A stretch of DNA of 64,000 bases from Alphaproteobacteria bacterium (GTDB lineage Bacteria > Pseudomonadota > Alphaproteobacteria > Rs-D84): the NCBI GenBank assembly GCA_015062445.1, contig SUUQ01000004.1, forward strand, positions 1-64,000, in the 5' to 3' direction. A program made the position numbers and the translations under genes. Positions 2 to 59,433 of the stretch are shown in pieces. Under the pieces are notes generated by a model that ran no database searches, had not been told where the DNA came from, and saw only the letters and a list, made by a program, of their open reading frames with translations. Position 1 is the first letter of the stretch; each line of letters starts with the position of its first letter.

Positions 2-2851
2 GGTAGTTATGGTGCATGTGGCAATTTTGGTGCATGCGGCAGTTATGGTTCTTGTACAAACTTTGGTTCCTGTGGTAGTTATGGTTCATGCCAATACAGC
101 GGCACAGCAACCTGTCCAATCAAGACAATACATCCAATTACATATAAGGTGACACTAGATAATCAGGGGGCAACCAGTGCAGGAACAACAGCATATTGGT
201 ATCAATTTGAAACGGCTTCACCATGTTATTATTATTTGAATTCATCTTTAACAACCTGCATGGGCTCTGATGGATATACCCTAACTAAACCATCTAAAAC
301 GGGGTATACGTTTATGGGTTATTACACAGGAACAAATGGATCTGGGAAACAATATATAGATGCAAATGGACAAGGTGTTAATAATTTATATGGTGCGGTT
401 GCAGCAAACAGTACTTTATATGCATATTGGGTTCCAAATATCTACAAAGTATCACTGGATAAACAAAGTGGAACAGGTGGAACCAGTGAATACTATTATA
501 AATATCAAACTGATAGTCCGTGTTATTATTACACATCTTCATCGTTATCGTCTTGTGTAAATGGTGGTCTAGGGGCGACCATAACGCCGCCAACCAGAAC
601 TGGATATACGTTCGGGGGATATTATACAGGAACAAATGGTACAGGGACACAATATGTTGATGCTGGTGGTGGAACTATGAATAATATTTATGCAAATGTT
701 GCAGGAAATACCACACTGTATGCAAAATGGACAGCAAATTCATACACATGTTCTGCAGGTAAATATCTAAGTGGCACAACATGTTCGGATTGTGAATCTG
801 GATATTACTGTGCTGGCGGAACATGGACATATGATGGTGGCGTCCAGGGACGTGGTGCATGTCCATCCGACTTCCCATTAACAGACCCACGTGGTGGAGC
901 AACATCCAATGAAACATCTATAAATGGTTGTTGGCGCGATTGTAATGCATCCGATACACCGAATTCTACGTCACGTACCGGGTGGAAAGAATATGGTGGC
1001 AACAACACGTGTGCCGCAACCGCATGTGCCGCCGGGTATTATTTGGACAATGGTACGTGCAAGGCATGCGACAGTGGGTATACATCAGGTTCTGGTATGA
1101 CCAGTGGTCGTGCATATTGCTATAAAACCTGTGCATCAAAAACGGGGTACACTTTGACCGGTGGCGTGGACTATTACAGTGCAACAGATACGTGTTCGTA
1201 TTCGGCGAACACGTACAAGGTTACATTGGATAAACAAAGTGGAACAGGTGGAACCAATGAATACTATTATAAATATCAAACTGATAGTCCGTGTTATTAT
1301 TATACAGACTCATCTTTATCTACCTGTATGGGCAGTGATAGTTATACTTTGACCAAACCAACCCGGACTGGTTATACTTTTGGTGGATATTATACGGGAA
1401 CAAATGGAACAGGTTCCCAATATATTGATGCGAATGGTCAGGGAGTAAATAATTTATGGAGTGCGGTGGCAGCAAACAGTACTTTATATGCATATTGGGT
1501 TCCAAATATCTACAAAGTATCACTGGATAAACAAAGTGGAACAGGTGGAACCAGTGAATACTATTATAAATATCAAACTGATAGTCCGTGTTATTATTAC
1601 ACATCTTCATCGTTATCGTCTTGTGTGAATGGTGGTCTAGGGGCGACCATAACGCCGCCAACCAGAACTGGATATACGTTCGGGGGATATTATACAGGAA
1701 CAAATGGTACAGGGACACAGTATGTTGATGCTGGTGGTGGAACTATGAATAATATTTATGCAAATGTTGCAGGAAATACCACACTGTATGCAAAATGGAC
1801 TGCAAATTCATACACATGTTCTGCAGGTAAATATCTAAATGGCACAACATGTTCGGATTGTGAATCTGGATACTGGTGTCCTGGTGCTACATGGACATAT
1901 AATGGCAGTGTCCAGGGACGGCAATCGTGCTCAACCAGTACTGAAACCCGTTACCCAAACAGTGCTGCAGGGTCGGATGCGATAACAGATTGCTATAGCA
2001 ATACAAAATCACGCGCATGGTCGGGGTCACAGACCGCATGTCCAAAATCAGATGGTTGTGATGTCACGTGCAACACGTGTTCGATTGCGGCATGTGACTA
2101 TGTGGCATATTCAAACAGTGCAGGAACTGGGGATGGAACGATAAAATCGGGCTGTTCATCAAACAGCGCTGCGTGCCAGCAGACGGTTAAGAGCAGGAGC
2201 GCACAGGAAAATCATTATCTAAGTGGCACAACATGTCCATCATGCCCATCTGGTTATCCCAACAGTATTGCAGGCGCAACAGCGATAACGCAATGTTACA
2301 GCAATACGAAACAACGTGCGTGGTCGGGCGAGCAGATAGAGTGCGACACACCATCGGGATGCGAATCTGCAACATGTGAATCTTGTTCGCGTGATAAATG
2401 TAGTTATGTTGCATATTCAAACAGTGCTGGTACAGGGGATGGAACAATAAAATCGGGGTGCGAAACCAATAACGAATCGTGCAAACAAAGTGTTGCATCG
2501 GTAACGGCCAGTTCAGGCAACTATGTGTCTGGTACAACCTGCCCAGCATGCACGAACAAGCCCGACAACAGTTATTACACCGGCACTGCATCGTCCAATG
2601 CATGTCCGTGGGAATGTAATGATGGATATAATCTGACATCAGATAACCAGTGCGGTCAGTTTTGTGATTCTGGAATCACACATATCCATTTAAGCACTGG
2701 GTTAAAGGTACCGTTGTATACATCTGCCCGTACAGCCCCGGCGATTAATGTTCTGTGGAACGATACGATTTGCTATGGCAGTTTGGCAGCTGGTGCAGGC
2801 AGCGGACTGAATGTAAAATACAACGGCACCACATACCATGCGATAGACTAA
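2..2851 (+). CDS. Giant Cys-rich surface protein with InlB-type repeats, 5' truncated by window
   Basis: The frame is open from the window edge, so the start is outside; 949 residues are visible. The first visible ~35 residues are short Gly/Ser/Tyr/Cys repeats (GSYGxC, NFGxC). Four ~80-residue units of the Listeria-Bacteroides/InlB B-repeat type follow, each with GYTF-GYYTG and ending LYAxW. They alternate with Cys-rich modules (CSAGKYL, CSDCESGY) that resemble the cysteine-rich repeats of extracellular receptors. The last ~65 residues (from about 2658; contains GITHIHLSTGLK and NDTICYGSLA) are nearly identical to the end of the protein at 47332-50820. Such repeats occur in secreted or surface proteins; that this one is an adhesin is inference. 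The downstream DNA is also duplicated between the two loci. Confidence 0.85.
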   Translation, partial: GSYGACGNFGACGSYGSCTNFGSCGSYGSCQYSGTATCPIKTIHPITYKVTLDNQGATSAGTTAYWYQFETASPCYYYLNSSLTTCMGSDGYTLTKPSKTGYTFMGYYTGTNGSGKQYIDANGQGVNNLYGAVAANSTLYAYWVPNIYKVSLDKQSGTGGTSEYYYKYQTDSPCYYYTSSSLSSCVNGGLGATITPPTRTGYTFGGYYTGTNGTGTQYVDAGGGTMNNIYANVAGNTTLYAKWTANSYTCSAGKYLSGTTCSDCESGYYCAGGTWTYDGGVQGRGACPSDFPLTDPRGGATSNETSINGCWRDCNASDTPNSTSRTGWKEYGGNNTCAATACAAGYYLDNGTCKACDSGYTSGSGMTSGRAYCYKTCASKTGYTLTGGVDYYSATDTCSYSANTYKVTLDKQSGTGGTNEYYYKYQTDSPCYYYTDSSLSTCMGSDSYTLTKPTRTGYTFGGYYTGTNGTGSQYIDANGQGVNNLWSAVAANSTLYAYWVPNIYKVSLDKQSGTGGTSEYYYKYQTDSPCYYYTSSSLSSCVNGGLGATITPPTRTGYTFGGYYTGTNGTGTQYVDAGGGTMNNIYANVAGNTTLYAKWTANSYTCSAGKYLNGTTCSDCESGYWCPGATWTYNGSVQGRQSCSTSTETRYPNSAAGSDAITDCYSNTKSRAWSGSQTACPKSDGCDVTCNTCSIAACDYVAYSNSAGTGDGTIKSGCSSNSAACQQTVKSRSAQENHYLSGTTCPSCPSGYPNSIAGATAITQCYSNTKQRAWSGEQIECDTPSGCESATCESCSRDKCSYVAYSNSAGTGDGTIKSGCETNNESCKQSVASVTASSGNYVSGTTCPACTNKPDNSYYTGTASSNACPWECNDGYNLTSDNQCGQFCDSGITHIHLSTGLKVPLYTSARTAPAINVLWNDTICYGSLAAGAGSGLNVKYNGTTYHAID
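401..815 (+). repeat. Intragenic duplication, copy 1 (415 bp)
   Basis: This segment recurs almost identically at 1469-1883, an offset of 1068 bp. It encodes the end of one InlB-type repeat, a whole second one (DKQSGTGG to LYAKW) and the following Cys-rich linker. The near identity at DNA level, including silent positions, points to recent duplication or ongoing gene conversion. Confidence 0.85.
1469..1883 (+). repeat. Intragenic duplication, copy 2 (415 bp)
   Basis: Partner of 401-815, in direct orientation. Recombination between the copies would delete or add 1068 bp (356 codons) in frame, so the protein length could vary between strains. Confidence 0.85.
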
Positions 2852-58386: not shown

Positions 58387-58412
58387 AAATCCCCCAAATC
58401 GGGGGATTTTTT
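58387..58412 (+). terminator. Terminator after groL
   Basis: ATCCCCC-n5-GGGGGAT followed by T6. Confidence 0.8.
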
Positions 58413-58593
58413 AATCCAATGACGAACAGGTAGACGAAATAAACATTATTCGCTGATAAATAGTCAGCGAAATACGACCATTAATTATTTTATGGTATTC
58501 CGCCTGGGATGTTATGGCCAAGATATCACACATTTTGAATACGGGTATATTTTGCTCTAACCTGATTTTTTCGATTTTTTGACCAACTGACAT
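58411..58593 (-). CDS. Mini HTH (XRE-like) protein, 60 aa
   Basis: MSVGQKIEKIRLEQNIPVFK begins a helix-turn-helix (MCDILAITSQAEYHKIINGR ... LTIYQRIM) with the Glu/Tyr/Lys-Ile-x-x-Gly pattern of XRE proteins. A GGGGG site lies eight bases before the ATG. The protein ends with hydrophobic residues and no C-terminal domain. It is preceded by a highly structured leader with a terminator-like stem, and converges with groL. Confidence 0.7.
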   Translation of the reverse strand: MSVGQKIEKIRLEQNIPVFKMCDILAITSQAEYHKIINGRISLTIYQRIMFISSTCSSLD

Positions 58594-58607
58594 AAGATAC
58601 CCCCATA

Positions 58608-58790
58608 TAAAAAATTAAAACCGCATTTGAAAACAAAAGCGGTTGGAGGTTAACAACTATTCAAGAAAGATAGCACTGTTTATTTAGATATATCACAGTC
58701 CTCCAACCATTTATGATTGGAGATTATTTGCGTCAATCAGACGTTCTTGAATAGGTTGTTATGCCTATGCACCAAAATGCTTTCAATGCA
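58608..58790 (-). ncRNA. Structured leader / candidate attenuator RNA upstream of the mini HTH gene
   Basis: Minus-strand transcript with a 16-bp stem P1 (58744-58760 with 58652-58667, one bulge) enclosing three hairpins: 58731-58743 (CGTC/GACG), 58701-58722 (9 bp, TAAA loop) and 58675-58699 (ACTGT/ACAGT). After P1, 58641-58649 can pair perfectly (9 bp) with 58700-58708, but the same bases belong to hairpin 2 and to the 5' arm of a terminator-like stem (58619-58624 with 58639-58644, then T-rich). The two states exclude each other, as in riboswitches or attenuators. The ligand is unknown. It may also act as a free small RNA of about 180 nt. Confidence 0.55.
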
Positions 58791-58796
58791 CTGTTA

Positions 58797-58825
58797 ATTA
58801 TACTGGCATGATATAAAATGTTCAA
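58797..58825 (-). promoter_or_regulatory. Promoter of the structured leader
   Basis: On the minus strand TTGAAC (58820-58825), 17 bp, perfect TATAAT (58797-58802). Confidence 0.7.
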
Positions 58826-58858
58826 CAATAAAATCAAAAGTCGCCCCCGCATAAGCAC

Positions 58859-58886
58859 TTGACATTTTTTATTTTTGTGCTATATT
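58859..58886 (+). promoter_or_regulatory. Promoter of the unknown gene at 58918
   Basis: TTGACA (58859-58864), 16 bp, TATATT (58881-58886), close to consensus. It is divergent from the leader promoter, whose -35 is 34 bp away. Confidence 0.7.
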
Positions 58887-58917: not shown

Positions 58918-59433
58918 ATGACACAAAGAATTTCTATGGCGGAAATGTACGATATTGCAGCCGCCTTTATCACAGACAAAGATACAAAGGTTCAGGTTTT
59001 GGCAGATCAAGACCGTATAGAGTACACATTTACCAAGCATAAATTGGCAGACTATCCATATTGCTTGGTCATATCAATTGAACGTGGGGCACCACAAAAA
59101 TGCCGCCCGTATCTGTCGAAACGTGATGACGGCAATTATGATGTTGTTACCCGTGATAACAAACCTGGACACGTTTATCTGAAACGTGGAACAGGCGCAA
59201 CCGGGTATGCGGGTAATCGTGTACTGGTAACGGCCCAGACACGTAAAAATGTTGGTCGTGCGTTTGATAAAACACAACGTGATATCGTCAAGGCATTTAC
59301 ACGTTTTTGTTCACCTTCGTTCTTTAACGTGCATGATTTAGCAAGCAAACGTGCATCAGGACAACTGGCGACAAAAGATAACGATAGACTATTGTTTTCT
59401 GTTATTTATCGATTAAAAGAAAAAATACGATAA
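58918..59433 (+). CDS. Unknown protein with a strong promoter
   Basis: 171 aa from the ATG at 58918, after AAAGGA. Soluble, basic at the C-terminus, no signal peptide, no motif I recognise. The middle (KPGHVYLKRGTGATGYAGNRVLVTAQTRK) is Gly/Lys/Thr-rich and could bind nucleic acid, but this is a guess. It has its own near-consensus promoter and terminator, suggesting a single, well-expressed gene. Confidence 0.7.
   Translation: MTQRISMAEMYDIAAAFITDKDTKVQVLADQDRIEYTFTKHKLADYPYCLVISIERGAPQKCRPYLSKRDDGNYDVVTRDNKPGHVYLKRGTGATGYAGNRVLVTAQTRKNVGRAFDKTQRDIVKAFTRFCSPSFFNVHDLASKRASGQLATKDNDRLLFSVIYRLKEKIR

Follow-up and report, generated by a model that had tools for sequence, protein, structure and literature searches.

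A leader with two exclusive RNA folds, probably an on/off switch related to sRNA-Xcc1, precedes a small HTH gene in an alphaproteobacterium

The leader in front of a 60-aa HTH-like ORF in the stretch of 64,000 nucleotides analysed here (the window) is probably a real RNA on/off switch. Its sequence and those of its relatives point to a 5' attenuator of the HTH gene, which would be kin of the small RNA sRNA-Xcc1 (RF02221) and would follow the antisense plan of the phage C4 and P4 CI RNAs. In the best reading of the data, a C4/CI-like antisense leader became an attenuator acting in cis and spread to many copies, each with a "barcode" of its own.

Architecture of the leader

Both the leader and the ORF are on the minus strand of the window, and the leader is read downward from 58825. 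The promoter TTGAAC-17-TATAAT proposed in the preliminary description was found there as a sigma-70-type promoter (58797-58825; TTGAAC 58825-58820, TATAAT 58802-58797) with 10 of the 12 consensus positions matched, and transcription would start near 58790. The approximately 185 nt between promoter and gene hold a 16-bp stem, the three hairpins inside it, a U-rich terminator and a 9-bp segment that has two possible partners. The folding energy of the minus strand between 58790 and 58600 was -60.7 kcal/mol (z = -6.4), and none of 200 shuffled sequences folded as well. The plus strand folds too (z = -4.1), since the element is palindromic, but the promoter, the terminator and the gene are all on the minus strand and the plus-strand reading was rejected.

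The 16-bp stem enclosing three hairpins, which had been described before, was recovered in the minus-strand fold: positions 58760-58755 and 58753-58744 pair with 58667-58652, around hairpins at 58743-58731, 58723-58700 and 58699-58675. These are P2 (CGUC/GACG, 58731-58743), predicted from the fold; P3 (UCUCCAAU/GGUUGGAGG, 58700-58723), a putative anti-antiterminator indicated by the fold, the swap control and covariation; and P4 (58675-58699), the loop of which carries the conserved GAUAUAUCUAAAUAA, with two-sided changes in 5 of 5 pairs. The predicted 5' hairpin P0 (58768-58790) showed two-sided changes in 7 of its 8 pairs. The 5' strand of the P1/P1b stem (58744-58765), called here the address a1/b1, was assigned from the fold and from complementarity within copies, and the 3' strand (58652-58667), the antisense segment, from the fold, the swap controls and covariation. 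An alternative 5' hairpin, A1 (AUAGG-loop-CCUAU, 58751-58768), excludes P1.

The 9-mer at 58708-58700 (GGUUGGAGG) has two alternative partners: 58649-58641 (CCUCCAACC) and the 5' arm of the hairpin to which it belongs. Complementarity across copies defines these strands as AT5 (58700-58708, first bases GGU) and AT3 (58641-58649), the two sides of a predicted antiterminator. AT3 also pairs with the base of P1; a second competitor for the pairing of the 9-bp segment is the basal portion of the 16-bp stem. The final bases of AT3 are shared with the terminator stem (58644-58619, followed by the U-rich tail); the "terminator arm" named earlier as one partner of the segment is the start of this stem. 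The predicted intrinsic terminator as a whole (AACCGC..GCGGUU with its U-rich tail) spans 58606-58644. It is followed, as the preliminary description had it, by the start codon: a Shine-Dalgarno sequence (GGGGG, 58600-58604) and the ATG of the 60-aa ORF (58411-58593), which has its own terminator downstream (58410-58386) and no Pfam match on its own. Homologues of this ORF with leaders were found in the genus, and they mostly retain the leader where both could be seen. On the other strand, a strong divergent promoter (TTGACA-16-TATATT, 58859-58886, plus strand) precedes an ORF (58918-59433, plus strand) for a 171-aa protein without significant Pfam match.

Covariation in two exclusive folds

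In the OFF fold the P1/P1b stem, hairpin P3 and the terminator are formed, and the ON fold consists of the 9-bp antiterminator and hairpin P5 (CUAU/AUAG, 58657-58673), the loop of which is the 3' strand of P1b. Homologous leaders, from which the preliminary description had suggested building a covariance model, show covariation for both folds. In an alignment of 104 copies that was fitted to the OFF fold, 97.2% of the cells were paired and 26 of the 34 pairs showed two-sided changes, against 38-52% for slid partners; several helper alignments were model-fitted as well. In the swapped-partner controls, where partners were exchanged between copies and where P1b and AT5/AT3 were not in the model, the z values were 24.5 for P1, 28.7 for P1b, 14.5 for AT5/AT3, 16.4 for P3 and 11.9 for the terminator. 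AT5 and AT3 were complementary at 9 of 9 positions in almost every copy, a pairing kept up by numerous compensatory changes (such as GGCUGGAGG/CCUCCAGCC, GGCAGGAGG/CCUCCUGCC, GGUUGGAGU/ACUCCAACC), and in an alignment composed mainly of other orders 22 of 23 rows had all nine pairs. In case of P5, CUAU/AUAG occurred 100 times, CAAU/AUUG 57 times and crossed combinations four times; A1 also covaries (A/G versus U/C association, Fisher p = 4e-12 over copies). These tests on the two folds ignore phylogeny, and their p-values are therefore optimistic. Given this covariation in relatives, the two exclusive partners of the 9-bp segment are not a matter of chance.

P5 shares strands with P1b, A1 with P1 and AT with P3, and AT and the terminator have bases in common; together they form one coherent switch. 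The MFE favours the OFF fold over the ON fold by about 10 kcal/mol (5.9 before the 3' arm of the terminator is made), therefore the ON fold would need kinetics or some factor. In a rival reading, an RNA-binding protein would recognise P4, or the GGAG of AT5, and decide the fold for all copies at once. Across orders no part is as conserved as P4, its loop consensus GAWWAUNNNNRAAUAA being conserved and unpaired, while the address P1b varies freely, and with so many copies in each genome the leaders resemble a single regulon. However, P4 is present in both folds, and we consider a protein-bound attenuator a possible but rather doubtful alternative to the antisense leader.

The idea that every address is unique in its genome held only partly. 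The own partner was the best one within the genome in 12 of 24 cases in G103, in 7 of 9 in the window's genome (G000) and in 6 of 6 in G171, G091 and G019. The mostly private addresses favour individual control, but they could also be the result of drift. Leader-peptide attenuation was discarded, as the candidate start codons in P0 or P4 (GUG) were not conserved between copies on inspection by eye.

Distribution of the element and the genes behind it

A BLAST search with the leader gave several matches in its own genome and matches in nearly every relative. With the covariance model from the homologous leaders (R1) the element was found in 131 of 141 genomes of the same genus (94 of the 97 good ones) and in 174 of 190 genomes of the order, in 18 of its 22 genera. 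The window's genome has 9 copies at E < 1e-5, the single-contig genome G103 about 26 at the same threshold, and G171 has the highest count, 56 at E <= 0.001; many of these copies are paralogues, so the counts are not independent. A second covariance model, R2, used for the wider Alphaproteobacteria, detected the element in 34 of 385 sampled genomes, many of them outside the window's order, and in a phylum-wide scan R2 gave matches in Alphaproteobacteria only. An exact-pattern scan of viral contigs did not find the window-type element, and its present-day carriage by phages is unsupported.

A mobile or repetitive DNA element that spread before many genes without a regulatory role would also give many copies per genome, and tandem copies do occur in the window's genome (G000 C14:39030 and 39536). 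The compensatory changes in two exclusive folds and the fixed spacing to the gene, however, need selection; the covariation refutes an inert repeat, and this explanation is hardly credible.

The spacing is tight on both sides of the leader. The TATAAT ends 0-1 nt from the start of the RNA model, with TTG 23 nt upstream of the model start, and 167 of 204 copies are followed by an ORF of 45 aa or more with an SD before it; the start of this ORF, called by a simple rule, lies at a median of 25 nt (IQR 22-28) after the U tract. Such positions do not suit a free-standing sRNA that acts in trans, stops at the terminator and leaves the downstream gene a bystander; nor did the window show a further promoter-like site in the interval from the terminator to the ATG. 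The strong promoter and terminator, and the isolation of sRNA-Xcc1 as an 88-nt stable RNA (PMC2996969), speak for a free-standing RNA, which we nevertheless hold to be very unlikely.

The products encoded behind the leaders include small HTH proteins, short helical proteins, OMP_b-brl/Opacity barrels, lipoprotein-like proteins and Stealth proteins, and many of them begin like signal peptides, as judged by eye. In G103, eight paralogous exported proteins (MKKHLIIAGII..AVTKCV..; L086, L087, L093, L097, L101, L105, L109 and L111) have a leader copy each. The control of a mini HTH gene proposed in the preliminary description agrees with the position of the leader in the window, but it is not HTH-specific, since most copies precede other genes.

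The set of genes also bears on whether the RNA is a metabolite-binding riboswitch, in which the choice between the folds would be made by a small molecule bound to P4 and the junction. The conserved unpaired P4 loop and the terminator/antiterminator expression platform are what such a sensor would show, and the leader resembles riboswitches of this type in its exclusive helices, in the coupling to a terminator and in P3 as anti-antiterminator; it differs from them in its hypervariable address region. The genes (HTH regulators, unrelated exported and outer-membrane proteins, phage antirepressors, SymE) have no common pathway, the P4 loop is absent in at least one copy (L145), and the counterpart of the conserved 3' domain elsewhere is an antisense-type sRNA. 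The most variable part is the self-complementary address P1b, which fits an antisense-type RNA; a riboswitch is unsupported, and we regard it as unlikely. The attenuator-like leader of the preliminary description is strongly borne out by covariation in both folds and by a promoter and a start codon at constant distances in about 200 copies, while its sensing RNA finds no ligand logic in the genes.

Relationship to sRNA-Xcc1

The earlier statement that the leader matches no known RNA class holds for the window copy, which gave chance matches only in the Rfam search proposed at the time, had no RF02221 match even at E <= 10 and did not reach the gathering score of 53 bits. It does not hold for divergent relatives, which match RF02221 (sRNA-Xcc1). 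The 19 same-genus copies searched against Rfam likewise gave chance matches only. The best RF02221 score in the window's genome was 36.5 bits, at another copy, and three of the six sub-threshold RF02221 matches of that genome coincide with R1 copies; the other three (C10:66592, C9:189797 and C12:63051), missed by R1, are probably further divergent copies.

In the divergent copies RF02221 covers exactly the 3' half, on the same strand, with 56.2 bits at L264 (cut-off 53), 51.7 at L265 and 45.4 at L257; L262, L252, L256 and L266 match as well. L264 has two divergent element copies back to back, at 4-210 (minus strand) and 301-497 (plus strand), both matching RF02221. A single R2 search finds both the window copy (E = 2e-33) and L264 (E = 1e-12), and since L264 exceeds the RF02221 cut-off, the homology of the window copy to sRNA-Xcc1 is a transitive one; by the cut-off the window copy is no member of RF02221.

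The structures agree with this kinship. The structure line of the RF02221 covariance model is the ON fold: sRNA-Xcc1 has a 9-bp stem around two hairpins, the first with an AAUA/GAAUAA internal loop, as AT, P4 and P5 of the window. The same 5' half (A1, P1, P1b) lies upstream of the phylum-wide RF02221 loci; in 25 of them inspected, the upstream region mostly had the A1 hairpin and the a1/b1 address. Downstream, a second copy of the address covers the SD of the next gene (for example L278 with TCACACAGAGG, L284, L289 and L291), and the swapped controls gave z = 4.0 for the upstream and 5.5 for the downstream address. The window type differs in two respects: an intrinsic terminator with a U-rich tail follows AT3 in 199 of its 204 copies and in 0 of 25 RF02221 loci, and it has no target at the RBS (z = 0.7).

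A T-run of at least five was present between the a1/b1 address and the sRNA in 18 of the 25 RF02221 loci (L274-L298), often behind a hairpin, and in 9 of 194 window-type copies; by analogy with P4 immunity it is possibly an upstream terminator. Among the genes behind the RF02221 loci are those for Bro-N, P22_AR_N, KilA-N, Phage_pRha and SymE_toxin. sRNA-Xcc1 has been described as a trans-acting integron-cassette sRNA (PMC2996969, PMC12444791), and a 2025 study places it, in integron cassettes of Xanthomonas, upstream of symE (PMC12444791). Among the papers searched, none was found that links it with antirepressors, and in plasmids the RF02221 consensus found weak partial matches only.

Comparison with phage antisense RNAs

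The C4 RNA of phages P1 and P7 (Rfam c4, c4-2) is a leader upstream of an antirepressor gene, with its 5' end at a GG motif and with antisense segments a' and b' (PMC5320573). The RF02221 loci show this layout, whereas the window copy has no downstream a2/b2 target, and the element itself did not match Rfam c4. In P4 CI (seqA-CI-seqC) premature termination is controlled by a processed leader RNA, through the pairing of its antisense segment with a copy upstream (PMC4825925); the downstream seqC used by P4 is absent from the window type, and a strong intrinsic terminator follows the window-type RNA. The antisense segments are complementary to the upstream leader copy with z = 42.4 in the window's class (n = 194) and 11.0 in other orders. 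A second target downstream at the RBS was not found in the window's class (z = 0.7, against 5.5 in the RF02221 loci), therefore the C4 mechanism is not transferable unchanged.

GGW is the reported RNase P cut site of C4 RNA (PMC5320573). The GGU of AT5 resembles it, which would be compatible with RNase P processing to a stable RNA of 70-90 nt, a trait of C4/CI antisense RNAs, and no more. Near the sRNA-Xcc1 locus before a P22_AR_N gene in L282, a sub-threshold c4-2 RNA (RF02944, 34.8 bits) was seen at 2890-2958, so that two antisense systems stand near each other there.

Proposed mechanism and implications

In the proposed antisense-type attenuator, RNA polymerase would start at the leader's own promoter. 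In the OFF state the 5' address (the 5' strands of P1/P1b) would pair in cis with the antisense segment, P3 would form, and the terminator would be left free and stop transcription; actual termination at this site is predicted from the sequence. In the ON state the 3' domain would fold alone, as the 9-bp AT helix around P4 plus P5, so that the terminator stem would be broken and the HTH gene transcribed. By analogy with sRNA-Xcc1 and C4, the 3' domain may be processed at the GG of AT5 and may then target the leader in trans. Candidate triggers are another 3' domain supplied in trans, a protein bound to P4, or a ligand.

We put forward one extension as a speculation that is more likely wrong than right. 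Each genome would hold dozens of phage-immunity-derived leaders, each with a private P1b address; the processed 3' domain of a leader would, acting in trans, bind the address in the nascent transcript of that same leader and free the cis 3' domain to antiterminate, giving a separately addressed, self-reinforcing switch for each surface-protein or HTH gene.

The leader and sRNA-Xcc1, an RNA of a plant pathogen with the layout of phage-immunity antisense RNAs, descend by their sequence kinship from the same stock. The sRNA-Xcc1 loci can be re-read accordingly: instead of orphan sRNAs, they seem to be antisense leaders of the C4 type that belong to phage antirepressor and symE genes. The element can be defined as an RNA class by its two covarying folds. 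It reaches 56 copies in a genome of about 1 Mb and apparently provides a main layer of control over genes for exported proteins in uncultured Alphaproteobacteria with small genomes.
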